This document shows, in pieces, positions 44,919-58,225 of a stretch of 64,000 nucleotides of DNA. Position numbers and translations under genes: made by a program. This DNA is from Candidatus Nitronereus thalassa (GTDB lineage: Bacteria; Nitrospirota; Nitrospiria; Nitrospirales; UBA8639), in assembly GCF_032191465.1 (NCBI RefSeq), contig NZ_JAQOUE010000001.1:62001-126000 (forward strand), read 5' to 3'. Position 1 is the first letter of the stretch. The number at the start of each line of letters is the position of its first letter. A model generated the notes under the pieces. That model worked only from the letters and a program-made list of their open reading frames with translations, made no database searches and was not told the DNA's origin.

Positions 44919-45107
44919 TTAATCGTGTTCGTGGAGTCCATCAAGGGTGGCGGTGCTCCCACCCTTGATGCATCCATAAGGGACAATTTGAATTCTCTTG
45001 CAACGCTTGCATTTAATTTCAATGCCACTGTCCAATCGTTTCAATAGCAATTGACCACATGGACAACGTGTTTCCGGAATGAAGGGTTCTGTCTTGAGCG
45101 GCGCCAT
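44919..45107 (-). CDS. Com-like zinc-ribbon protein 1
   Basis: A 62-residue protein with two CxC/CxxC knuckles: ETRCPCGQLL and IEIKCKRCKRIQIVPY. This resembles the phage Mu Com translational regulator, which binds mRNA. The Met at 45,107 has GGAG upstream and gives a size similar to the paralogue at 50,805; a longer frame would start inside the PIN-TRAM gene. It lies 34 bp after that gene on the same strand. Target unknown. Confidence 0.7.
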   Translation of the reverse strand: MAPLKTEPFIPETRCPCGQLLLKRLDSGIEIKCKRCKRIQIVPYGCIKGGSTATLDGLHEHD

Positions 45108-45141
45108 GTTCAAGGGCTCCAATCCTGAAGGTGAATGGTGT

Positions 45142-46161
45142 TTACCCGAAACTGGCCTGAAGTCTTCTGGTGTTTTCACCGACGCTGGAAAAAATCATGC
45201 GTCCTGCGCTGGTCTGAATCACACTCGTGACCACAACCTCGACATATTTTCCAATCCATCGTTTCGCGTGATCGACAACAACCATTGTCCCATCATCCAA
45301 ATGGGCCACCCCTTGGCCAGCTTCTTTACCTTCCCGTAATAAAAAGACTCGTAATGATTCACCTGGGATTACGACAGGTCGAATTGCCTTTGAGACATCA
45401 TTGGCATTCAGGACTTGTATCCCTTGCAGCGAGGCGACTTTGTTGAGATTCATATCCGTGGTGATAAGTTTGGCCTCGAGTTGCTTCGCTAGGGCCACCA
45501 ATTTCGAATCGACATCCGGGATTTGAGGAAAATCATCATGAACAATATTGACATCAATGGACTCCGTGTTTTGTATGGTGTGCAGAATATCCAGCCCTCG
45601 TTTGCCGCGAAGACGTTTATGGGTATCTGCGGAATCTGAGATGCGGTGAAGTTCAAAAAGAATGAATTGGGGCACGATTAATGGTCCTTCCAGAAATCCT
45701 GTCTGGCATAAATCGGCAATTCGCCCATCGATTATGGCGCTCGTATCTAAAATTTTTGGTTTTGGAATTTGGGTTGGTGGGACTGTTGGTTTTTGCCCTT
45801 GTTTCAGGAAGGGCATTTGACTTATCCGGAAGCCAAAAGTGGTTCCCAGGTAACAAAATCCAAAAAGCGACACAAAGGTCAATATTTGTGTCACATCTGG
45901 GGAGTGAATGAAAATGTGTTGACTGACCAAGCTGGTGAGGCCACACAGGATCAGGCCGAATGAAAAACCAACCAAACTTCCTACCGTTTCGACCGGTTTG
46001 ATGGGAAAGACTTTGTATTCAAGCCAAATTAGGACGAGGCTTGCGCAGAACATCAATCCTGCTCCGAAAAGGCCGTCAAGAAACGATCCTGTTCCGAATT
46101 TTAATCCGAGTGCCACCCCAGCAAATATGCTTCCGATGATAAAGAGACTGTGAAAAACCAT
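45142..46161 (-). CDS. PIN-TRAM membrane-anchored ribonuclease-like protein
   Basis: 339 residues: four N-terminal hydrophobic helices (to about residue 115), a PIN nuclease domain (ILDTSAIIDGRIADL, IVPQFILFELH, LITTDMNLNKVA, with the conserved acidic residues) and a C-terminal TRAM RNA-binding domain. This is the YacL/PilT-like architecture of Gram-positive and other bacteria. The intact acidic residues suggest Mg-dependent RNase activity at the membrane; the substrate is unknown. Confidence 0.87.
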   Translation of the reverse strand: MVFHSLFIIGSIFAGVALGLKFGTGSFLDGLFGAGLMFCASLVLIWLEYKVFPIKPVETVGSLVGFSFGLILCGLTSLVSQHIFIHSPDVTQILTFVSLFGFCYLGTTFGFRISQMPFLKQGQKPTVPPTQIPKPKILDTSAIIDGRIADLCQTGFLEGPLIVPQFILFELHRISDSADTHKRLRGKRGLDILHTIQNTESIDVNIVHDDFPQIPDVDSKLVALAKQLEAKLITTDMNLNKVASLQGIQVLNANDVSKAIRPVVIPGESLRVFLLREGKEAGQGVAHLDDGTMVVVDHAKRWIGKYVEVVVTSVIQTSAGRMIFSSVGENTRRLQASFG

Positions 46162-46185: not shown

Positions 46186-47010
46186 TCAATAGGCCATGAC
46201 AGATTTACTGAACAGAGATTGGGTTACCTCAAGAATATTCCTGAGGTGAGGATCAGCACAGGATTTGTAGGGGATCTCTGGGGTGGCGGTATTCTTGTGA
46301 AGGATCAGAAAAATTATATGGGTTTTCATTGAGGAACGATGATGTCCTTTCCCAGACCAAAATTTTTGAGGTATATCCTGGAAGGAAAAAGATGGCTCCC
46401 ATTGGGAATAGTTATCGATAAGGACCTGAACTAGCATGGGGTCAAAACGAGTTCCTGCCAATGTCCGGAGTATGCGAACCAATGTGTCAATTTGCTCAGT
46501 TATGGGTTGGTCGTGTTGAGTGAGTAATTGGTCTACGGTATCGGCTATGGAGAGAATTCTTGCTCCCAGAGGAATCATGGAACCTCGCATTCCCAATGGA
46601 AGGCCGTGGCCATCCCAACGTTCATGATGCAGGGCAACAAGTTTGGAAATCTCCTTTAGTCCAGGCCATGCGGATAGGATATCGGCGCCTGCTTGTGGAC
46701 TACATTCTGTCATGAGGTAATCTCCAATCATTGAATACCCATGTTGGTAAACAATCTCATTTGGGAGAGAAAGTTTTCCGAGATCATGGAGCAAGGCTGC
46801 ATAACATATATCTGAAAGGTCATCGCTTGGTAGATTCAAAGCTTGGCCTAGGAGTAGGGAATAAAGGGCCGTCCGCTTTCCATGTTCAACGAGCGAAGGA
46901 TCATGGCGTCTCATGGCTTCCACAAAATGCCTAATGGTGTGGCTTTTAAGACTTTGGTTGTGTTCCAAAAGGCGTAATGCTGGGATTGTATTTTTGTGAA
47001 GTTTGGACAT
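46186..47010 (-). CDS. HD-GYP-like phosphohydrolase
   Basis: An HD-domain protein with HDLGK at residues 75-79 and the second signature HHERWDGHGLP at 128-137, where the usual GYP is GLP. Metal-binding His and Asp residues are kept. HD-GYP proteins hydrolyse cyclic di-GMP, but the altered GYP leaves the substrate open. No receiver domain is fused; the 35-residue N-terminal part is helical. A strong Fur-box match lies 49 bp upstream, so expression may follow iron. Confidence 0.8.
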   Translation of the reverse strand: MSKLHKNTIPALRLLEHNQSLKSHTIRHFVEAMRRHDPSLVEHGKRTALYSLLLGQALNLPSDDLSDICYAALLHDLGKLSLPNEIVYQHGYSMIGDYLMTECSPQAGADILSAWPGLKEISKLVALHHERWDGHGLPLGMRGSMIPLGARILSIADTVDQLLTQHDQPITEQIDTLVRILRTLAGTRFDPMLVQVLIDNYSQWEPSFSFQDIPQKFWSGKGHHRSSMKTHIIFLILHKNTATPEIPYKSCADPHLRNILEVTQSLFSKSVMAY

Positions 47011-47058: not shown

Positions 47059-47077
47059 GATACTGATTATGATTATC
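47059..47077. promoter_or_regulatory. Fur box
   Basis: The minus strand reads GATAATCATAATCAGTATC, matching the 19-bp E. coli Fur consensus at 17 positions. It lies in an A+T-rich segment upstream of the HD-GYP-like gene. A fur gene is present about 11 kb away. Confidence 0.7.
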
Positions 47078-47472: not shown

Positions 47473-47985
47473 TTATTTTGGATCACCTCGCATCATAAAG
47501 GGATGATTGAGAACCCACATTTCATACATGGGGATGGCAAACATCACCAGAAAACTTATCAGCATAAGGAAATCACCGGTCAACATAGTTATTACAAAGA
47601 GAGGCGAAACATAGGTGATTAAAAAGGGAGATATCAAATCCAAAGTGACGCCAAGGAACGAAGCCCAGGTGGTCACGATTTTTATGGTCGGGCTCGCCAT
47701 CGTGAGGTACAACACATGGACCAAGATCATGAATACAACGGGCATGGTGAATAGGTGAAAATGTGCGGTTTCGGCTAGGTGGCCAAAAGTCATGGGCTCA
47801 CCAAAGTTTGCATCAGAACCTCGATAATGTTGGGCAATGCCCTTTGGGGTCAACTCGGTCATGTCATGTGCCCATACGAAAGTAAATACAAACCCAACTA
47901 ACATTAAAAGTAGGAACCATGTGTACACCAATCGAATTTGTTTGTCGGTGTCACGAAGCCGAAATCGAGTATTGAAATTCCGCAT
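47473..47985 (-). CDS. Four-helix membrane protein, partner of FMN-binding protein
   Basis: 170 residues with four predicted transmembrane helices. Several His residues cluster around helix 2 (ETAHFHLFTMPVVFMILVH), and a periplasmic segment carries AQHYRGSDANFGEPMTF. The histidines could bind haem or a quinone, but no cytochrome family is certain. It starts 7 bp after the FMN-binding gene on the same strand, so the two probably act together in transmembrane electron transfer. The product has no established name. Confidence 0.7.
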   Translation of the reverse strand: MRNFNTRFRLRDTDKQIRLVYTWFLLLMLVGFVFTFVWAHDMTELTPKGIAQHYRGSDANFGEPMTFGHLAETAHFHLFTMPVVFMILVHVLYLTMASPTIKIVTTWASFLGVTLDLISPFLITYVSPLFVITMLTGDFLMLISFLVMFAIPMYEMWVLNHPFMMRGDPK

Positions 47986-47992
47986 TCCACAC

Positions 47993-48706
47993 TTACAGTC
48001 CTAAGATGGATTCAAAAAACCCTTTTTCACTTTTGCCAGCAGCAACGATTTCAGTGCCGAGGCCACGTGGCTTTAAATAGAATTCATTGACGAGGACTAA
48101 TACGCGCTTAACTCCAGCACTTGATGACCGAACCGACATGGTGGCCCCGGTAATATTGATAATATCTCGATTGATTCGAATGGGGTCATTCACATCCTTT
48201 CCTTCATACTGAAAGTTAAAACGCTTGGTGGCGATTTCGTTGCCTCGTGCCTCTCGATATACGAGAACCTCAAAATTCATACATTCGCCCGAAGGATCAA
48301 CGCCCACCATGTAGGTAATGGGGCGATGTTTGCCAATGGTGTTTTGCACCATGGCATAACCATCAATTTTTCCCTTCGTTTCTCCAATATAGACATCGAA
48401 AGAGGTTTCAGGAAATTTCCAGCCTATGGTTTGCTCAACCATAGTTTTTTGCGCAGGCGTTAAGGTTAAAACTTCTTTTCGAATCTTTTCAGACTCCGGA
48501 AACATGACCTTGGCGGCTTCTTCTTCGGTAAAATAAATTTCCAAATGACCTAGTTCTTCAGCGTTAAGCCAGCGCTTGAGCTCATGGTCCCAGATTTTTT
48601 CCTGAGGAGGTTCCTCAGCAAAGCCAGTAGACGAAGATAGCACCATGCAAAGACCGTAGATGGTAGAAATTTTGAAGAATGTGTTAATTAGCTGAGAATA
48701 GCGCAT
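47993..48706 (-). CDS. Periplasmic FMN-binding-domain protein
   Basis: An N-terminal signal segment precedes a C-terminal FMN-binding domain of the RnfG/NqrC/NosR type, with the flavinylation motif ITGATMSVRS (residues about 193-202). In this family ApbE attaches FMN covalently to the hydroxyl residue at the end of S/TGATx(S/T), here Ser. A conserved VGVDPSGECMNFEVLVYRE lies before it. An apbE gene is encoded 3.2 kb away on the other strand. It overlaps the upstream lipoprotein gene by 19 bp. Likely a one-electron carrier in the periplasm. Confidence 0.82.
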   Translation of the reverse strand: MRYSQLINTFFKISTIYGLCMVLSSSTGFAEEPPQEKIWDHELKRWLNAEELGHLEIYFTEEEAAKVMFPESEKIRKEVLTLTPAQKTMVEQTIGWKFPETSFDVYIGETKGKIDGYAMVQNTIGKHRPITYMVGVDPSGECMNFEVLVYREARGNEIATKRFNFQYEGKDVNDPIRINRDIINITGATMSVRSSSAGVKRVLVLVNEFYLKPRGLGTEIVAAGKSEKGFFESILGL

Positions 48707-49161
48707 CCCTTGGCCCTCAATTGATTAGATATTCTATTAGATAGCCGTTGTTCCTCTTCTGCAATCGGTGGAATTCGCCTCCATGGATTAGATTGAGACT
48801 GGACGCCCATCGAGGAAAAGAATTCTCTATTTTGCTGCACTGCGATAAGGATTCCGTTGGATTGGGTAGAGATGTTTATAAAAAACTTAGCTCGCTCTTG
48901 ATTAGAATCGCGCGCAAAGCTTTCAAAGAGAGAAAACCCTGATTTCGTCTTGGATGCTAAGCCTATCCACTCAGTTTCGATGAGACCATTTTCTTGGTCA
49001 ATTCGTCTGAGTTCAAATTCATCAACACTCGCTAGGGCCACCGACCAGGTCTGATCGAACGAACATGAGGTGGTGACCTTGGGGGTGTTAAACATACCTA
49101 CGCACCCCAAGGTCACCAAAAACACGCTGAGAAATAATATGTTCACGTAATCTTTTCGCAT
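48688..49161 (-). CDS. Lipoprotein in the flavin operon
   Basis: 157 residues with a signal peptide and lipobox VTLGC. The mature part has a beta-strand-rich region (FELRRIDQENGLIETEWIGL) and no recognised domain. It overlaps the FMN-binding gene and follows the porin gene by 37 bp, so it belongs to the same transcript. A structural or assembly role for the electron-transfer unit is plausible. Confidence 0.65.
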   Translation of the reverse strand: MRKDYVNILFLSVFLVTLGCVGMFNTPKVTTSCSFDQTWSVALASVDEFELRRIDQENGLIETEWIGLASKTKSGFSLFESFARDSNQERAKFFINISTQSNGILIAVQQNREFFSSMGVQSQSNPWRRIPPIAEEEQRLSNRISNQLRAKGCAILS

Positions 49162-49198
49162 AAAGATTCTTTCTCAGCTTTTCGGCAATCCTCGTCGT

Positions 49199-50629
49199 TT
49201 AGAAATATGTGGCAGCCCCGAATTGCCAACCATTATTCGAAGCCGCACTTCTTGAATCAGAGATGGCTTCGTCATTAATCGTGTAGGCGAATTTGATGAC
49301 GGAATCCTCAACAGGTCTGAAATTGACACCGAACGTCACGCGCTTTAAGTCGTTGGTATTGTTGCTGACATTAGCGTTGGTATCCGCTTCGCCATAACGA
49401 ACAATCGCGGTAAAGGTGGAGCCCTGAGAGAAGTGAGTGGGCGCCATCTTTTGGAGAAATTCTGGCATGAAATGGTAATTGCCCTGGACATAGAATCCTT
49501 CCATCCTAGCAGGGGGAAGACCGGAGGAGGCCAACGTGTTCCCTCCCTCAATGTTCACCCATGCGGCTTCTCCCTGGATTTCGAATGGGCCACGCTGAAG
49601 GTTTCCATCCACGGCGAGGATGGTCAAATAATTGTTGTCCGCGTCATCCCACGTTCCATGGTGAATGGAGCCTGCGACTTCGACACCAAGAATGGGACTG
49701 ACAGCAATGCGGGAGACAATCGCTTTGTTATCATTATTGTCCGTCTGGAGACTCCCTCTAATTGACCGTAGGCCATTGGCCGCGGTGAAAACAGATGAAG
49801 TCGCGCGGGAAACAATGCCCGTCATTGCCGCTACCGTGTCTGTTGTTGTGGTGTCGCTTCCATCGAATCCTTGCGTGATGTAAAATTCATAGTCAACTTT
49901 GGAGAGGCGAGTTGGATAAAAGGTTCCATAAAGCCCAAGCCCCGATTCGGCAAAAGTTGATGGAATAATCAAACGACTAACCATGGGTCTCAGAGGAAGG
50001 TCGTTCAATGGTGTGTCATGGATCAAGTTAAACCGACCCATCGGGACCAGAAGAATGCCTCCACGAAGGTTGATCCAGTCTTCAATCCGATAGTCCATGG
50101 TGGCGAATTCAATTTTGACATCTCCATCCCCTTGATTGCCTTGTGGCCCACCATGTTCAATCTCTAATTCCACAGCCACACTGACACGGTCAGTGACCTG
50201 TGAATAGAAAAACGGCACAAAACGTTCTTGATCGAATTCAAGGCCATCGCGACAATCTCGGGCCGCTCCCGCGCAGTCGGTGACGATGAAATCGATGTAA
50301 CCACCGACGATAGTCTTGGGGGCTTTGACAAAGGGTTTCGCGTAAATGGTTCGACCACCCTGCAGGCCACTTCCACCCGTGAATGTATCCCCAAACCGTT
50401 GTACTTGTTGCTTGGTATCACCCAAGGCAGGCATTTGTTCTGAAAGATCAAGAGTTGGTGGATCAATTTGGGTCATCCCTCCGCCTCGTAGATTGTCTTG
50501 AATCATTTTTCGAATCTGTTCACGTTGAGCAGGAGTGAATTCTTCAAATTCATCCCCGTCGGCCCAAACATTTGCTTGGGGTACAATCATGAGAGCCATC
50601 ATCGCCCCCGCGATCAACAATCGTTTCAT
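49199..50629 (-). CDS. Outer-membrane porin-like beta-barrel protein
   Basis: 476 residues with a signal peptide (MKRLLIAGAMMALMIVPQAN), a short helical, charged segment (FTPAQREQIRKMIQDNLR), and a long region with the alternating hydrophobic pattern of outer-membrane strands ending in an aromatic residue (GAATYF). It resembles phosphate-selective-type porins in overall form; substrate specificity is not deducible. The start follows GGAGGT; an in-frame Met 54 bp earlier lacks a signal peptide. It heads the operon with the lipoprotein and FMN-binding genes. Confidence 0.8.
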   Translation of the reverse strand: MKRLLIAGAMMALMIVPQANVWADGDEFEEFTPAQREQIRKMIQDNLRGGGMTQIDPPTLDLSEQMPALGDTKQQVQRFGDTFTGGSGLQGGRTIYAKPFVKAPKTIVGGYIDFIVTDCAGAARDCRDGLEFDQERFVPFFYSQVTDRVSVAVELEIEHGGPQGNQGDGDVKIEFATMDYRIEDWINLRGGILLVPMGRFNLIHDTPLNDLPLRPMVSRLIIPSTFAESGLGLYGTFYPTRLSKVDYEFYITQGFDGSDTTTTDTVAAMTGIVSRATSSVFTAANGLRSIRGSLQTDNNDNKAIVSRIAVSPILGVEVAGSIHHGTWDDADNNYLTILAVDGNLQRGPFEIQGEAAWVNIEGGNTLASSGLPPARMEGFYVQGNYHFMPEFLQKMAPTHFSQGSTFTAIVRYGEADTNANVSNNTNDLKRVTFGVNFRPVEDSVIKFAYTINDEAISDSRSAASNNGWQFGAATYF

Positions 50630-50804
50630 TGAACGACCTCCATCAATTGTTGTTGGGGACTCTAGTTTGGTCCTCGAAGTCACTAAAGGGACTCTTGTGG
50701 TCCTCAGATTAAATTGAGTGTTCTAGCGTATTGTGAAAACCTCTTTGTTATTAATATTTGACATGAAAAAAACGGCTGTATTGTCACGGCCTCTTGCTAG
50801 GGTT

Positions 50805-51002
50805 CTAATTTTCGCAAGTCGATATGCTCACTTCATGATCCTTGATGCGATCATAGGGAATGGAGACAATCCGTTTACAGCGTTTGCATTTCAGTTCAAG
50901 ATTATCTCCCCGAATTTTTGCGATAAGATGCCCGCATTCACATCTAGCCTCGCTACGCTTCGGTGCGGGTTTAGGTAGAACGCTTTTGCCTTCGAAGGTC
51001 AT
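50805..51002 (-). CDS. Com-like zinc-ribbon protein 2
   Basis: 65 residues with ARCECGHLIAKI and LELKCKRCKRIVSIPYDRIK, clearly paralogous to the protein at 44,919: the KCKRCKRI..IPY core is nearly identical. Four cysteines should bind zinc, as in the phage Mu Com protein, which controls translation. It lies just upstream of the porin gene, same strand, so it may regulate that operon's mRNA. A Fur-box-like site lies about 75 bp upstream. Confidence 0.72.
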   Translation of the reverse strand: MTFEGKSVLPKPAPKRSEARCECGHLIAKIRGDNLELKCKRCKRIVSIPYDRIKDHEVSISTCEN

Positions 51003-51075
51003 GGAAAATAACGAGATTCAGATGATTCTTGAATATCTAGTAAAAATAAGTATGATATTTGTTTTCATCAATATT

Positions 51076-51094
51076 GATTTTGATAACTATTATT
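51076..51094. promoter_or_regulatory. Fur-box-like site (weaker)
   Basis: GATTTTGATAACTATTATT matches the 19-bp Fur consensus at 14 positions. It is in the A+T-rich divergent region between the Com-like/porin operon and the lipoprotein-apbE genes, so it could control both. Weaker than the 47,059 site. Confidence 0.45.
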
Positions 51095-51288
51095 AATATA
51101 AAATTTCACGGGGCCGTGTCAATATCACGCACAAAAAGAGTATGAGCTTCCTAAGTCTTTGATTTATTGTCATAAGTCGAGAGGGAGGGACGCTAAATAG
51201 CCATCCACTGTCATATCTGTTAGAAATATTTATATACTTTTTCCGATGACGAGGCATGGTTGAGCGACATTGAGGGTAGGAAGATCTC

Positions 51289-51879
51289 ATGAGCATAAAT
51301 GTTGTATTGACGCTGTCTAGCCTTTTTCTCGTACTTGTCATAGGCGGATGTACGAAAGTCGTAGATCCGAATTTTGCTCAAGATCAAGATGCTAATGAAT
51401 TGGTGTTTGGATACATTCAGGTCGAGACTGACGGTTCCAATCCGCGTGGATATCCTACCCATGTCAGATTTATTGCAATGACTGAAACAACAACAAGGGA
51501 AAGATTCAGGGTGGATGTGCGCTCAGATTCCGATGTATTTTCCCTCAGGTTGCCGGTGGGCACGTACAGCGTTGACCGTGTGCAATTTAATGAAGGTCCA
51601 TTTATGTATGAATCTCATGTCCAATTAGAATTTCATGTGCCTGAAGGGAAGGCGGTGTATTTAGGAGTCTGGCAGTTTGATGTAGAGACGCCGCGCACTA
51701 TTCGGCATATGCGTATTCAGGTTGCTGAAGGCGATCAAGAGTTACCGATGCTATTTTCTGCGAATCTTGTGACAGACTCTACGCCAATTACTACAGTCTT
51801 ACCGAAGCCAGAGGTGTTTGAAACTCGTGTGTTTACGGTTGCCCCTTATCCAAAAATCAAATATTTCTATCGTCAATAA
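51289..51879 (+). CDS. Lipoprotein upstream of apbE
   Basis: 196 residues with lipobox VIGGC and a mature beta-rich domain (YIQVETDGSNPRGYPTHVRF, then FSLRLPVGTYSVDRVQF) suggestive of a carboxypeptidase-regulatory or transthyretin-like sandwich fold; that assignment is tentative. The start lies eight bases after GGAAGAT-type purines. It precedes apbE by 15 bp in the same direction, so the two are co-transcribed. Confidence 0.65.
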   Translation: MSINVVLTLSSLFLVLVIGGCTKVVDPNFAQDQDANELVFGYIQVETDGSNPRGYPTHVRFIAMTETTTRERFRVDVRSDSDVFSLRLPVGTYSVDRVQFNEGPFMYESHVQLEFHVPEGKAVYLGVWQFDVETPRTIRHMRIQVAEGDQELPMLFSANLVTDSTPITTVLPKPEVFETRVFTVAPYPKIKYFYRQ

Positions 51880-51894
51880 CCCGCAAAGGTTCCA

Positions 51895-52926
51895 ATGAGA
51901 TACTTTTCGCCGAGAGCATTAATATTTACATGGAGTTTGTGTGTTTTTGCGACATTTTTAGGGACGATCGTATGTGCGACATCTCCCCATTTGGTCAAAC
52001 GTGGCCAAATGCATATGGGCACCCTTGTCTTTCTCACGGCAGTGGCACCGGAGGAAAAGGTGGCGCATGCCGCTGTCCAAGCCGGGTTTTCGGAAATTCA
52101 CCGCTTAGAGGAAATCCTGAGTACTTGGATTCCTGAAAGCGAACTTTCCCAAGTCAATGCCAGTGCTGGGCGAAGCGCGGTTGCCGTTAGTCCTGAGACC
52201 ATTGAGATCTTGAGCAAATCTTTGGAAATGGATCGTTTGACTGATGGTGGATTTAACATTGCCATTGGTCCTGCTGTCGAAGCCTGGAATGTGAGTCGAG
52301 AAGGTCGGATTCCGTCACAGGAAGAGTTAGAGGCCCTTCGACCTTTAATGAATCTAAAGAATCTTCAAATTGATCGAGAATCTGGAAACGTGTTTCTTCG
52401 TGTCGCGGGAATGCGCGTAGATATTGGCGGGATTGGTAAGGGGTATGCTGCGGATCTTGCCGCTCGCGTGATGAAGCAATCCGGCGCTACCGCAGGTGTG
52501 GTAGCCATTTCTGGAGATATTAAAACGTTTGGTCGGATGCCGGATGGTGAACGGTTTGTGTTTGGTATTCAACATCCTCGACAGGAAGGAAAGTTATTGG
52601 GGCAGCTGGAACTTGAAGATGAGGCCGTGTCTACAGCCGGGGATTATCAACGATATTTTATGAAGGACGGTATTCGATATCATCACATTCTTGATCCCAA
52701 TACTCTGCAACCCGCCCGGTTATCGCAGAGTGTGACCGTTGTGGCTAAAGAAGGGGTTCTGGCTGATGGTTTAGATACTGGAATTTTCGTGATGGGACCG
52801 GACAAAGGACTGGCGCTCATTGAGAGCCTAAATGGAGTTGAAGGTATTATTGTGGGAATTGACGGAAATGTGTTGATTTCTTCGGGTTTGAAAGGACGAT
52901 TGCGTTCAATAAACTCTAAGCCTTGA
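51895..52926 (+). CDS. apbE: FAD:protein FMN transferase ApbE
   Basis: An exported flavin transferase: signal-like N-terminus, FAD-binding core with VDIGGIGKGYAADLA, EAVSTAGDYQRYF, YHHILDP and ADGLDTGIFVMG, the motifs containing the catalytic Asp/Thr and Mg ligands. It moves FMN from FAD onto Ser/Thr of target proteins in the periplasm. The FMN-binding protein at 47,993 is the obvious substrate. A bidirectional hairpin follows. Confidence 0.92.
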   Translation: MRYFSPRALIFTWSLCVFATFLGTIVCATSPHLVKRGQMHMGTLVFLTAVAPEEKVAHAAVQAGFSEIHRLEEILSTWIPESELSQVNASAGRSAVAVSPETIEILSKSLEMDRLTDGGFNIAIGPAVEAWNVSREGRIPSQEELEALRPLMNLKNLQIDRESGNVFLRVAGMRVDIGGIGKGYAADLAARVMKQSGATAGVVAISGDIKTFGRMPDGERFVFGIQHPRQEGKLLGQLELEDEAVSTAGDYQRYFMKDGIRYHHILDPNTLQPARLSQSVTVVAKEGVLADGLDTGIFVMGPDKGLALIESLNGVEGIIVGIDGNVLISSGLKGRLRSINSKP

Positions 52927-53004: not shown

Positions 53005-53736
53005 TTAGTAATTGCCTTTGTCTTTTCCAGCTCGGGAATACCCGCTGGCGTGGGCAGGGTTTCCGCCATGAGATTTGATGCGCTCATGAATTTTTTCCAT
53101 CCGCGACTGTTGTTCTTCTGACAACACGCCCTTGGCATCGCGTTTGGCTTTAATGGATGCCATGAACAGGTCCGCTTTTAAGGCATGAACATTTTTCAGG
53201 TCTCGCTCGATGTCGGACAAGTTGGCGTGATCATCCCGGAGTAATTCATGCAGGTCAATATTCGCTAGTTGGACGGTGGCTTTCATCTTGACGCGTTCTT
53301 TTTTGTAATTCGTTTTGATGTTGCGAAGTTTTTGTTCTTGTTCATCGGTGAGGCTCATCCCCTCTTTGAATTTCAAAATATGATCAATGAATTCAATAGC
53401 GCTTTGATGGGCGCCGGGATGGGTTGAGCCCTGTCCTCCATGACCCATCGTTGGATGTGCGCTGCTATGCCCCGTCATTCCTTTGCCATGGTGGAAGTCT
53501 TCCGTGCTGGGGTAACCTTTGGAATGGTGTTTATCCCCATGAATGCTCGCTTCCATATGGGTTGAGCCATGGATGGAATGATGGGCGCCGGAATAACCGG
53601 AACTGCCATGTGGAGATTTATGGATCGAGCTGTGTGGATCATTGGCCCAGGCTGGGCCTGCGAGGGCAATAACCAATAGGCTACTAAGTGAACACATGGT
53701 CAACGAGGAAGGTGTTGTGACTCCAGTGAACTTCAT
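53005..53736 (-). CDS. His-rich Spy/ZraP-like periplasmic protein
   Basis: 243 residues: signal peptide, then a His/Gly/Ser-rich segment (residues about 30-120) with many HH and HG motifs, and a C-terminal helical domain resembling Spy/CpxP/ZraP chaperones (SLTDEQEQKLRNIKTNYKKE and LRDDHANLSDIERDL, then GVLSEEQQSRMEKI). The His stretch should bind Zn or another metal. The start follows AAGGAGGAC. Such proteins sense or protect against envelope metal stress. Confidence 0.78.
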   Translation of the reverse strand: MKFTGVTTPSSLTMCSLSSLLVIALAGPAWANDPHSSIHKSPHGSSGYSGAHHSIHGSTHMEASIHGDKHHSKGYPSTEDFHHGKGMTGHSSAHPTMGHGGQGSTHPGAHQSAIEFIDHILKFKEGMSLTDEQEQKLRNIKTNYKKERVKMKATVQLANIDLHELLRDDHANLSDIERDLKNVHALKADLFMASIKAKRDAKGVLSEEQQSRMEKIHERIKSHGGNPAHASGYSRAGKDKGNY

Positions 53737-53915: not shown

Positions 53916-54989
53916 TTAGGAATCCTGAGCCCGATCGAAAAGGACGATATGAGGAACCACAATTTTGAGGGCGACCTGAGTGCCAACCGCATGAATTTGA
54001 GTCGAAGATTCGCTTGAGTGAATGAGGCGTCCCGACTTGAGGCGTATCCCGTATAGATTCTCGGATCCCCGAAATTGGCGTGTTTCAATCCGGGCTCCGG
54101 TACTCTCGGCTCCACAAATTTTAATGTCATCCGGTCGGATCATCACGTCGACGTGCTCGGAACCCTGATAATGGTTGGGAAGAGGCAGGTGGCCAAGTTC
54201 CGTAACCACATAATGTTCATGAATTTCCCCGGGAATGAAATCCGCCTGGCCAACAAATTCTGCCACAAAGCGGGAGTTCGGCAAATGATAAATGGTTTCT
54301 GGTGAAGCAAATTGTTCAAGTCGCCCTTGGTGTAACACCGCGACCTTATCGGCCATGGTAAATGCTTCTTCATGATCATGGGTGACTAAGACAGCGGTGG
54401 TTTGAGTGTTCTTCAGGACTTGGTGGAGTTCCCCACGCATCTTGTAAGTCATATCCGGGTCAAGATTGCTGAACGGTTCATCCAATAAAAGGAGGACCGG
54501 TTGCGGGGCAAGAGCTCGAGCCAGCGCTACTCGTTGTTGTTGTCCTCCGGAGAGTTCGTGGGGATAACGTCGCCCGAAATCCGATAACCCTGTCAGAGAG
54601 AGCATCTCTTCGACGCGCCGCCGCCGATTCTCCGCGGCCAATTGGTTTAGTCCAAACCCGACATTATCGTTCACGCAAAGGTGAGGAAATAGCGCGTAAT
54701 CTTGAAATACCATTCCGACCCGCCGTTGCTCGGGAGGCACGTGATGGTTGCCGTCGGCCACCATTTTCCCATCTAAGCGCACAGAGCCTTCGAGCACCGA
54801 TTCAAAGCCCGCGATTGCCCTTAGTGTCGTGGTTTTCCCGCAACCGGAAGGCCCCAACAAGCAAATGATATCCCCTTTCTGCACGGCAAAAGAAATGTCC
54901 TGAACCGCTGGACGGCCTGGTTCATACGAGCAGGTGACTTTATGGAGTTCAAGAACGATTGGTGGGCTGGCTGTGGGTGTGGTCGTCAT
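53916..54989 (-). CDS. fbpC: Fe(3+)-type ABC transporter ATPase
   Basis: The cytoplasmic ATPase of an iron importer. Walker A GPSGCGKTTTLRAIAG, Q-loop VFQDYALFPH, signature LSGGQQQRVALARAL, Walker B LLLLDEPFSNLD and switch TVLVTHD-like AVLVTHDHEEAF are intact. The C-terminal beta domain (residues about 235-350) is of the TOBE type found in FbpC/PotA. It is last in the fur-fbpA-fbpB-fbpC operon. Confidence 0.9.
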   Translation of the reverse strand: MTTTPTASPPIVLELHKVTCSYEPGRPAVQDISFAVQKGDIICLLGPSGCGKTTTLRAIAGFESVLEGSVRLDGKMVADGNHHVPPEQRRVGMVFQDYALFPHLCVNDNVGFGLNQLAAENRRRRVEEMLSLTGLSDFGRRYPHELSGGQQQRVALARALAPQPVLLLLDEPFSNLDPDMTYKMRGELHQVLKNTQTTAVLVTHDHEEAFTMADKVAVLHQGRLEQFASPETIYHLPNSRFVAEFVGQADFIPGEIHEHYVVTELGHLPLPNHYQGSEHVDVMIRPDDIKICGAESTGARIETRQFRGSENLYGIRLKSGRLIHSSESSTQIHAVGTQVALKIVVPHIVLFDRAQDS

Positions 54990-55111: not shown

Positions 55112-56731
55112 TTAAACAGTGTGTTGTCCCTTTTTCATTAATAGTAAGACGACTGGAATCGTGAGGGCGACGATAAGCAGGGCCGGAGGGGCGGCCAATT
55201 GATAGAGCTCTTCACTCGCTTCCAGCCAAATGCGTATGGCGAGTGTATCGAACCCGACAGGACGCAGCAAGAGTGTGGCAGGCAGTTCTTTTAAGCATTG
55301 AATAAAGACCAAAATCCATGCACTCATGAAACCGCCACGAACCAACGGCAAGGTGACAGAAACAAATGTTCGGTAAGACCGTGCACCTAAACTCTTCGCG
55401 GCTTCTTCGAGATTCGGGGAAAGTTGTTGAAGTGTGGATTCCATTCCCTGCAGGCCGACGGGAAGAAAGTGAACGAGGTAGGCGATGAGGAGCACCACGA
55501 TGGTTCCATACAGTTCAGGAATAAGTTGAGAAACGAGGACAAGGACTGCAAGAGCCGCCACAGGACCCGGCAGAACATACCCGGTGTAAGCGCCTTGAAT
55601 ACAGAGAAGACTGGACCATGTTTGTTTCTGGCAGGCCAGATAGGCCAAGGGTATCCCAAAGATGATGGTCAACGTGGCAGCGATTCCCGCCAGCCAAAGA
55701 CTGTTTCCAAAATGATTCCAAAATCCGGTCGAGATAGTGCCTGCCGCCAAGGCGTCCATGGTCCATTGAATAAGCAGGAGAAGGGGAAGACCAAAGGCGG
55801 CGCCTACAATCAGCAAGAGGTATCCTGAAAAGGTGATAGTTTGGATCGTGGTGCATGCTTGTGGAATGTGTTTCCGAAAACGACCAGTCGTTTGATAAAA
55901 CCGGCTTCGCTGTCGAAACCAACGTTCGGCCAATAAAAACAGAAACGTTCCCGAGACGAGGATCATACTTAAGCAGGCAGCTGCGGTATTATCGAAGCGT
56001 CCAGTCATTTGGTGATAGATGGCAAACGTAAACGTCTGAAATCGCAACATGGAGACAGCGCCAAAGTCGGAAGCCACGTAGAGAATGGCTAAGAAAAGCC
56101 CGGCAAACAGCGAAGGGCGAATCATGGGAAGCGACACGCGAAAAAAGGTGGTCAGTCGACTGGCTCCTGTTGCGCGAGCGGCTTCTTCATAGGAGATATT
56201 GAAATTTTTAAAGGCCGATCGCGCCAACAGATAGACAAAGGGAAAGGTATTGAGCGACATCACCAGAGTGGCACCAGAAAAACTAAAGGGCGAAAAAATT
56301 TGGGCGTCCGCCCCCGCCAGCACCTGCCACGCCTGTTCCAAAGCCCCATTTCTTTGAAGGAGGTAGGTGTAGGTGTAGGCCAACACATAAGAAGGAATGG
56401 CTAAAGGGAGAATGAGCAACCAATCCCAAAGAGTAGAACCGAAAAAACGGTAGCGAGTCAGGATCCATGCAAGAGAAACGCCAAGAAGCAGGTCAATGAA
56501 GGCGACACTGATTGCCAAGGTAAAGGTGTTAAATAGCAATTCCGGGATGCGCGTGGTCCAAAGCCGTCGCCAGACAGCCCCATCGGCGGTGAGGGCCGAG
56601 AAGATGACATAGAGGAGGGGAAGAGTGATGAGTCCGGCAAGGATAAAGGCGAGAATGATGAAGGGGGAGGGCAGGCGCACACCCCAACGGGGCAATGTGG
56701 TGAGGGAATTAGCGGAGGCCAACGTGCTCAA
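55112..56731 (-). CDS. fbpB: Fe(3+)-type ABC transporter permease
   Basis: 539 residues made of two fused permease halves, each with six helices and an EAA loop: EEAARATGASRLTTFFRVSL (residues about 180-200) and EEAAKSLGARSYRTFVSVTL (about 440-460). These loops contact the ATPase. The duplicated form is typical of FbpB/SfuB/HitB. It overlaps the fbpA 3' end by 23 bp. Confidence 0.92.
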   Translation of the reverse strand: MSTLASANSLTTLPRWGVRLPSPFIILAFILAGLITLPLLYVIFSALTADGAVWRRLWTTRIPELLFNTFTLAISVAFIDLLLGVSLAWILTRYRFFGSTLWDWLLILPLAIPSYVLAYTYTYLLQRNGALEQAWQVLAGADAQIFSPFSFSGATLVMSLNTFPFVYLLARSAFKNFNISYEEAARATGASRLTTFFRVSLPMIRPSLFAGLFLAILYVASDFGAVSMLRFQTFTFAIYHQMTGRFDNTAAACLSMILVSGTFLFLLAERWFRQRSRFYQTTGRFRKHIPQACTTIQTITFSGYLLLIVGAAFGLPLLLLIQWTMDALAAGTISTGFWNHFGNSLWLAGIAATLTIIFGIPLAYLACQKQTWSSLLCIQGAYTGYVLPGPVAALAVLVLVSQLIPELYGTIVVLLIAYLVHFLPVGLQGMESTLQQLSPNLEEAAKSLGARSYRTFVSVTLPLVRGGFMSAWILVFIQCLKELPATLLLRPVGFDTLAIRIWLEASEELYQLAAPPALLIVALTIPVVLLLMKKGQHTV

Positions 56732-57737
56732 TCACCGTCATGGTGGGGTCGCGAAGTTCTGAGAGGCGAGCCAGTGGCACTTGGGCGACTTGAAAACTTT
56801 TCAATGGACGAAGACCAGGGTCCGCATCCACACTGGTGTTGAGCGGATATTCTTTATTGCTATTGGCAAACATTTTTTGGCCCTTGGGGGAAATGAGAAA
56901 TTGTACTAAGGCTTTGGCTTGTGCGAGATGTTTGCTCTGTGCCGTAATGCCTACACCCGCGGCATTTAAGACGACGCCCATGCCCTGTTTTTCTTGGTCA
57001 GGCAAGAGTTGTGCGATGGGGGCATCCGGATGTTTCGCAAGATGCCGACTGATATAATAATGATTCACCAACCCTACTGCGACTTCTCCCCGAGCGACTG
57101 CCGCCACGATTTGTCGATTTTTTCCAAAGACAGAAGTGCCAGCATTTTCTTTGAGGCCTTTGAGAAACTGTTTGGTCATGGCCTCGCCCTTTATCTCGCG
57201 AATGACCGATACCCCGGTTTGAAGATACTCGCTTCCGGCAGTGGGAATAGCGACTTTGCCTTTCCATTTGGGTTGGGCCAAATCCAAAATTGAAGAAATC
57301 TCTGAAGGTTTGACCATGGTGGTGTTATACACCATGACCCATATGCGTCCAGACAATCCGATCCAGCTATTATCGGAGGCGCGAAAGGTGGACGGAATAG
57401 CCGTCTCAATTCCAGGAATGTCTACGGCTTGAAGGAGGTGTAGCTCACGAGCGCGTTCAAGGGCTCCGGCATCATTGGTGAGCAAGATATCAGCCGTTGT
57501 GCGAGAACCTTCTAAATTGAGTCGATTGACGAGTGCCGTGCTATCAGCCGTCAGCATTTGGATAGATATTCCGGATTCGGCTTCAAAGGCATCGAGTACA
57601 GGCTTGATCAATCGTTCGGCTCGCCCGGAGTATACGATCAGTGATTCTTTGGCCATGGAAATTGAGGGGCCAACCAGGACCGAGACGATAACGAAAGCGA
57701 TATAAACAAGAAATTTACCAAACGATTGAAAAGGCAT
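56709..57737 (-). CDS. fbpA: Fe(3+)-binding periplasmic protein
   Basis: An extracytoplasmic solute-binding protein of the FbpA/FutA family: signal peptide, then ESLIVYSGRAERLIKPVLDA, LTADSTALVNRL, the iron-site YISRHLAKHP region and NAAGVGITAQSKH. It captures ferric iron for FbpB-FbpC. The Met at 57,737 comes nine bases after GGAG and five bases after the fur stop, which favours it over an in-frame codon inside fur. Confidence 0.88.
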   Translation of the reverse strand: MPFQSFGKFLVYIAFVIVSVLVGPSISMAKESLIVYSGRAERLIKPVLDAFEAESGISIQMLTADSTALVNRLNLEGSRTTADILLTNDAGALERARELHLLQAVDIPGIETAIPSTFRASDNSWIGLSGRIWVMVYNTTMVKPSEISSILDLAQPKWKGKVAIPTAGSEYLQTGVSVIREIKGEAMTKQFLKGLKENAGTSVFGKNRQIVAAVARGEVAVGLVNHYYISRHLAKHPDAPIAQLLPDQEKQGMGVVLNAAGVGITAQSKHLAQAKALVQFLISPKGQKMFANSNKEYPLNTSVDADPGLRPLKSFQVAQVPLARLSELRDPTMTVIEHVGLR

Positions 57738-57742
57738 TAGTG

Positions 57743-58225
57743 TTATCTCCGTACGTCTTGATTGCTGAGGTCTTTTCCACAATTTTTGCACTCGCCACTC
57801 GAGAGCTGGACGGGATTGCCATACAGTTCCAGTTTATGGGTGCGAATGGTAAATCCATTTTTTCGTGCGACTTCTTCTTGGAGTTCTTCAATTTGACAAT
57901 TCTCAAACTCGATGATTTTGTCGCATGTGGTGCAAATGAGGTGGTCGTGATGTCCTTTGTGCGCTACATTATCAAACTGGGTTTGGGTGCCGAAGTGTTG
58001 TTCCTGGGCCAGGCCAGTTTCGCAGAGGAGTTTTAATGTCCGATAGACCGTCGCGAGGCCTATATGCGGATCTTTTTTGGCAAGCAGGCGATACATTTGC
58101 TCTGCCGTAACATGTTCCATTTTAAGAAACGTCGTGAGAATGTTTTCCCGTTGCCGCGTCAGCTTCAGATTATTCTTCGACAGATGATGTTTGAGAATGT
58201 CAAGTTCTTTGGTAGGTTTCGCCAT
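57743..58225 (-). CDS. fur: Ferric uptake regulator Fur
   Basis: 160 residues: winged-helix DNA-binding domain (LKLTRQRENILTTFL, then IGLATVYRTLKLL), metal-binding HHDHLICTTC and C-terminal CKNCGKDL. The His-His-Asp-His and two CxxC pairs are standard Fur ligands. It is the first gene of an operon with fbpABC, so it can control its own iron importer. No clear Fur box was seen directly upstream. Confidence 0.93.
   Translation of the reverse strand: MAKPTKELDILKHHLSKNNLKLTRQRENILTTFLKMEHVTAEQMYRLLAKKDPHIGLATVYRTLKLLCETGLAQEQHFGTQTQFDNVAHKGHHDHLICTTCDKIIEFENCQIEELQEEVARKNGFTIRTHKLELYGNPVQLSSGECKNCGKDLSNQDVRR

Follow-up and report, generated by a model that had tools for sequence, protein, structure and literature searches.

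A predicted covalent-flavin module with Fur-box-like sites and an uncatalogued four-helix membrane protein in Nitrospirales: a candidate system for reductive iron acquisition

Here we describe a gene cluster of Candidatus Nitronereus thalassa, which lies at positions 47473–52926 of a 64,000-nucleotide stretch of DNA (the window, whose numbering is used throughout) from a 4.0 Mb, 99% complete genome of the order Nitrospirales. The cluster comprises two divergent groups of genes with a Fur-box-like site in the promoter region between them. On the minus strand, the order of transcription is a gene for a 65-amino-acid zinc-ribbon protein (50805–51002), which opens the group, followed by genes for an outer-membrane porin (50632–49199), a lipoprotein, LPP (49161–48688), a flavin mononucleotide (FMN)-binding protein (48706–47993) and a 170-amino-acid membrane protein that we call MEM (47985–47473). 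Since the porin and lipoprotein genes are separated by 37 bp, the lipoprotein and FMN-protein genes overlap by 19 bp, and a further 7 bp separates the FMN-protein gene from that of MEM, we read the genes from porin to MEM as one operon. On the plus strand, a second lipoprotein gene, LP2 (51289–51879), is followed after 15 bp by the gene for ApbE, a flavin adenine dinucleotide (FAD):protein FMN transferase (51895–52926). An earlier, sequence-only reading of this DNA had proposed that six genes form a flavin-based electron-transfer system linked to iron. All six are present as open reading frames (ORFs) in this arrangement; the zinc-ribbon gene was absent from its list. Signal peptides and lipoboxes were assessed by eye, and on this basis LPP carries a TLGC lipobox, LP2 an IGGC lipobox and the FMN protein a signal-peptide-like N-terminus. 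Neither MEM, the porin nor the two lipoproteins gave anything above the Pfam cut-offs. LPP showed weak, sub-threshold similarity to DUF3576 and Lipoprotein_18, and no NCBIfam family was found for MEM, the porin or LP2.

The core of the module is a predicted flavinylation pair. Pfam searches confirmed both proteins that the sequence-only reading had named, with matches to FMN_bind (PF04205; E 1.7e-6, passing the Pfam cut-off) and to ApbE (PF02424; E 2.3e-80). The top PDB matches of ApbE were FMN transferases, with the HHILDP and ADGLDT regions aligned. The FMN protein, which also has low similarity to RnfG, below the NCBIfam cut-off, contains the expected TGATMS motif at residues 186–191. For comparison with other genomes, whose loci and genomes carry L and G numbers below, ORFs were called mechanically, and the names of protein clusters rest on one or two members each. 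Among relatives, [S/T]GATMS was kept in 72 of 73 genuine FMN-protein ORFs, the exception (L137) looking frame-disrupted, and divergent FMN proteins had [S/T]GATLS in 11 of 12 cases (the exception being L171). Outside the order but within the class, matches to ApbE and to FMN_bind fell on a single ORF of about 490–600 amino acids (L169–L175 and L177), with Pfam verifying the two domains in L170 and L172. Such a fusion would likely represent the enzyme joined to its substrate; it is followed by MEM and still stands beside porin and fur. The window genome encodes a single FMN_bind protein and a single ApbE, and the two stand together at this locus; because each is the sole copy, we regard it as near-certain, judging from sequence, that they are enzyme and substrate. 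The single-copy pair, the conserved motif and the fusions in relatives thus lend strong support to the prediction of a covalent-flavin system. A second, distinct type of ApbE occurs in some Nitrospiraceae (G190:C1:1898515-1899363; also G151, G260, G271, G312, G353 and G367), where no MEM-type FMN protein was found.

The occurrence of MEM followed that of the FMN protein. Searches for MEM covered Nitrospirota and plasmids. Within the phylum, 138 of 396 genomes had a match, corresponding to most of the order plus scattered divergent copies elsewhere; of the 49 genomes in the family of the window genome, 46 have MEM and 44 have the FMN protein. When the collection was scanned with a profile of MEM, the hits bore the titles Nitrospira, Nitrospirales, Nitrospirae or Nitrospirota, among them Candidatus Nitrospira defluvii, the only odd titles being those of L073 (Nitrospinota) and L139 (Nitrosospira). 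A plasmid search with one divergent MEM found nothing. MEM and the FMN protein were jointly present or jointly absent in all 30 genomes checked. Among 22 genomes lacking both, 12 had no ApbE, six had only a better-scoring ApbE resembling the second ApbE of G190, and four had an ApbE that scored like that of the window; of these four genomes, one has a completeness of 64%, and in another the gene sits where a contig ends. G338 had MEM and the FMN protein, and no ApbE was found in it. Over the 81 loci compared, the porin was conserved in 72 and LPP in 62; LP2 was conserved in 22 loci. The module is missing from several near-complete genomes of the order, indicating that it is not essential to the order's way of life.

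The description of MEM as a four-helix membrane protein held up, in that the AlphaFold2 (AF2) model has four long predicted transmembrane (TM) helices (pLDDT 80). Searches of Pfam, NCBIfam, PDB sequences and PDB folds gave no meaningful match. Two histidines, H75 and H77, were invariant in 20 of 20 divergent homologues, and a third, H90, was present in all 15 copies that have no haem-c loop. Five longer relatives carry a CxxCH motif in the loop between TM1 and TM2, and these have M, I, L or G in place of H90. The corresponding loci (L181, L184, L185, L186 and L187) adjoin cytochrome-like and other respiratory-type ORFs, as judged by eye. By the positive-inside rule, H75 and H77 should lie towards the periplasmic side and H90 towards the cytoplasmic one, a disposition that would suit a trans-membrane electron path. 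On an ideal helix H77 and H90 are 220 degrees apart, and so not on one helix face. A bis-His haem within the MEM monomer was considered and not adopted, as there is no conserved histidine beyond the HxH and H90 of TM2, nor a conserved second helix to supply a ligand; a quinone site or a metal site are possible alternatives to haem.

What singles out MEM is the absence of four other known types of membrane partner. The window genome has no Ferric_reduct/MsrQ (PF01794), PepSY_TM (PF03929), NapH-type Fer4_5 (PF12801) or NqrB/RnfD (PF03116) protein, which makes MEM the leading candidate for the membrane step. Pfam found no DsbD membrane domain among the proteins of the cluster, DsbD-type proteins not having been searched for genome-wide. 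That MEM represents a new class of membrane redox protein is a real possibility.

The porin was also correctly recognised by the sequence-only reading. Its AF2 model has a general-porin fold preceded by an N-terminal helical segment, and PDB matches were to general porins, OprO/OprP and DcaP, with E values down to 2.6e-12. It has no haem motif and resembles ordinary diffusion porins. Where the region ahead of the porin gene could be read, a gene for the zinc-ribbon protein (CxCG..CxxC) was there in 55 of 59 loci, among them the window, and divergent loci have it too. The window copy has weak similarity to phage Com-type translational regulators (PHROG E 5e-4), and the protein is possibly a translational regulator itself. 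A second Com-like zinc-ribbon protein is encoded at 44919–45179 on the minus strand (PHROG gpCom, E 0.0013), about 6 kb away and unlinked to the porin.

Fur boxes were scored against the 19-bp E. coli consensus. The site that lies between the divergent genes of the window (51076–51094; GATTTTGATAACTATTATT) matches at 14 of 19 positions, with a p value of about 0.05 in its own gap. The same gap contains GATATTGATAACCATTATT (16/19) or GATATTAATAATCGTTCTC (15/19) in relatives, and 38 of 55 divergent-promoter gaps were significant at 0.05 when compared with dinucleotide shuffles. We also scanned the start of each gene, taking 250 bp of upstream DNA and the first 60 bp within the gene. Sites of at least 15/19 accompanied 33% of ApbE, 29% of LP2 and 25% of porin genes, compared with 1% (5/352) of other genes, the scanned loci being related rather than independent, and a single site often counting for both porin and ApbE. 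Similar Fur-like sites occur in the distant loci L173, L178, L179, L193 and L194, as judged against simple shuffles. The Fur-like site of the sequence-only reading is thus present, and as a predicted site it is conserved across the order, but the window copy is marginal when taken alone.

The module adjoins genes for ferric iron uptake, as the sequence-only reading had recognised and as Pfam and PDB matches confirmed. Beyond ApbE, and on the minus strand, lie genes for Fur (57743–58225; PF01475, E 4.4e-36, with ferric uptake regulators as top PDB matches), an FbpA-like ferric-iron-binding protein (56709–57791; PDB ferric-binding proteins to E 1.5e-48, with the tyrosine pair of NHYY aligned), an FbpB-like permease (55112–56731; PF00528 in two stretches) and an FbpC-like ABC ATPase (53916–54989; PF00005 and TOBE_2). 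Between ApbE and fbpC, here and in many loci of the family, is a gene for a His-rich, LTXXQ/Spy-like periplasmic protein (53005–53733, minus strand; PF07813, E 5.7e-5, just below the cut-off), which was conserved in 19 loci and may bind metal. At the other end of the window cluster is a gene for an HD-domain protein (46186–47010, minus strand; PF13487, E 3.5e-27). The strongest Fur box of the window (47059–47077; 17/19, against an expectation of about 0.02 matches in 64 kb) lies 49–67 bp upstream of this gene; it was seen in the window and not before other copies of the HD gene.

Much of this arrangement is retained in relatives. Across two families fur-fbpA-fbpB-fbpC comes first and ApbE follows, with ExbB-ExbD-TonB lying between them in Nitrospiraceae; ApbE is divergent from the porin, lipoprotein, FMN-protein and MEM genes. 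MEM is often followed by the HD-domain gene (in many Nitrospiraceae loci) and then by a convergent bacterioferritin gene; the TonB and ferritin domains were checked. In the divergent loci L169–L180, fur lay within the fetched 5–12 kb in nine of 12 (L170–L175 and L177–L179) and fbp genes were found in L172, L173, L174 and L177, while L179 has a ferritin-like ORF, assigned by eye. In one of these loci (L170:9588-10762), an FTR1 iron permease with a cupredoxin replaces fbpABC beside fur, the porin, the ApbE-FMN_bind fusion and MEM. Since Fur and the flavin module remain linked even where a different importer is present, we favour a role in iron over an accidental neighbourhood. Of the iron role proposed by the sequence-only reading, the association therefore stands, extending through Fur, FbpABC, TonB-ExbBD, ferritin and FTR1 over two families and into other orders and classes, whereas ferric reduction itself is a step that we infer.

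Several known systems resemble the module. Flavinylated extracytosolic electron-transfer systems built on ApbE and FMN_bind proteins have been divided by their membrane components into five classes (NapH-, MsrQ-, PepSY-, DsbD- and NQR/RNF-like), and flavinylation clusters with iron-transporter neighbours are among those already described (Meheust et al, 2021; PMC8238504). Like them, the Nitrospirales module combines ApbE with a putatively exported FMN_bind substrate that bears [S/T]GA[S/T] and with an operon-encoded membrane protein, and like some of them it has iron-transporter neighbours, but by Pfam MEM fits none of the five membrane classes. P19-FTR1 clusters with an FMN-binding gene (PMC8238504) likewise tie an FMN-binding protein to iron assimilation, and FTR1 with a cupredoxin recurs in L170; unlike them, the window module has no P19, its usual importer neighbour is FbpABC, and it includes MEM and the porin. 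DUF4405 and FezC proteins are also membrane proteins with conserved histidines and links to flavinylation or iron, and FezC has been modelled to bind haem as a homodimer (PMC10979944), just as a haem in MEM would require a dimer. However, the six TM helices and four central histidines of DUF4405 (PMC10979944) contrast with four helices and three conserved histidines on one helix in MEM, and neither MEM nor 14 relatives gave a Pfam match to DUF4405 at E values up to 10. The adjoining ABC genes are of the FbpABC ferric-importer type, but they are neighbours of the flavin module rather than components of it. The main text of PMC8238504 makes no mention of Nitrospira, and our literature searches found no description in Nitrospira of this module or of flavin-based iron mobilisation. 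Flavinylation with iron-transporter neighbours is thus known; what is new is a Nitrospirales module whose membrane protein falls outside the known membrane classes by the tests made.

These results suggest a model whereby the module serves Fur-associated reductive iron acquisition built on covalent flavin, a reading to which we assign a probability of roughly 0.6. It is based on the Fur-box-like sites, the synteny with iron genes, the co-occurrence of MEM and the FMN protein, the single ApbE and FMN_bind proteins, the absence of four known types of membrane partner and the published precedent (PMC8238504), and among possible roles the reduction of ferric iron or ferrisiderophores is the best supported. 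In this model, ApbE would attach FMN to the TGATMS threonine of the periplasmic FMN protein, as the motif, the fusions and the single-copy pairing suggest. MEM would draw on the quinol pool, or on some other donor in the inner membrane, for electrons that it would deliver to the covalent FMN. In the periplasm the flavin would then reduce Fe(III), or an Fe(III) chelate that had entered via the porin or a TonB-dependent receptor, and the freed iron would be imported by FbpABC (in a relative, by FTR1 with the cupredoxin) and stored in bacterioferritin. Fur probably represses expression when iron is plentiful.

Several points weigh against this model. Its main weakness is that FbpABC and FTR1 transport Fe(III), and no FeoB-type Fe(II) importer was found, so that reduction would help mainly if it released chelated iron that was then re-oxidised. 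The Fur-box match of the window is modest, and the related loci are not independent samples of it. Neighbouring genes can, moreover, share regulation without sharing a reaction. Lastly, with all three conserved histidines of MEM on one helix, a haem with two histidine ligands would need a dimer or other ligands. The earlier statement that all the parts needed are present goes beyond the data, since both the electron donor and any cofactor of MEM are putative.

Fur control would fit equally well if the purpose were to spare iron rather than to acquire it, with a flavin carrier replacing a haem or iron-sulfur carrier in times of iron shortage and feeding a periplasmic oxidoreductase that acts on a non-assimilatory acceptor. 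Interchange of flavin and cytochrome is described for other systems (PMC8238504), and the distant MEM relatives with a haem-c motif stand in respiratory-type neighbourhoods. We nevertheless consider this unlikely, as the linkage to an importer persists over divergent orders despite the change from FbpABC to FTR1 with cupredoxin, the porin and lipoproteins of the operon suggest transport across the envelope, and the module contains no candidate acceptor enzyme. The same porin and lipoproteins could instead point to electrons that leave the cell across the outer membrane and reach Fe(III) or other acceptors outside. This was the transfer to the cell surface put forward in the sequence-only reading, and it now appears highly unlikely: the module showed neither a multihaem cytochrome nor a surface redox domain, and the porin, with its lack of a haem motif, looks like a diffusion channel.

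A different doubt concerns MEM, which might not carry electrons at all but anchor or support the flavoprotein, or bind metal through its histidines, while the flavoprotein drew its electrons from a partner encoded elsewhere. MEM has neither a known cofactor motif nor a fold match, the H75-x-H77 cluster could bind metal together with H90, and the limited search for DsbD-type partners leaves room for such a protein. Against this, four of the other known types of membrane partner are absent from the genome, MEM always lies beside the FMN protein and its distant relatives bear a haem-c motif, which makes a non-carrier role distinctly unlikely in our view. A more far-reaching version of the reductive model is that MEM founds a new transmembrane electron-transfer class with a four-helix, His-bearing core. 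Copies with H90, which are iron-linked, would pass electrons to a separate covalent-flavin protein, and copies without H90 to a haem c in their own periplasmic loop; the flavin version would serve Fur-controlled periplasmic iron reduction throughout Nitrospira, with the Com-like zinc-ribbon protein as an extra regulator. We offer this version tentatively, at somewhat less than even odds.

Nitrospira are major nitrite oxidisers, with comammox bacteria among them, and their respiratory enzymes are rich in iron. If the reductive model is correct, this conserved module, with its link to Fur and a membrane partner not yet catalogued, would extend the known flavinylation systems by one class and would provide a testable route for reductive iron uptake in Nitrospira. 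Equally, if true, the alternation of haem c and flavin within the MEM family would be a direct case of the replacement of one redox carrier by another.

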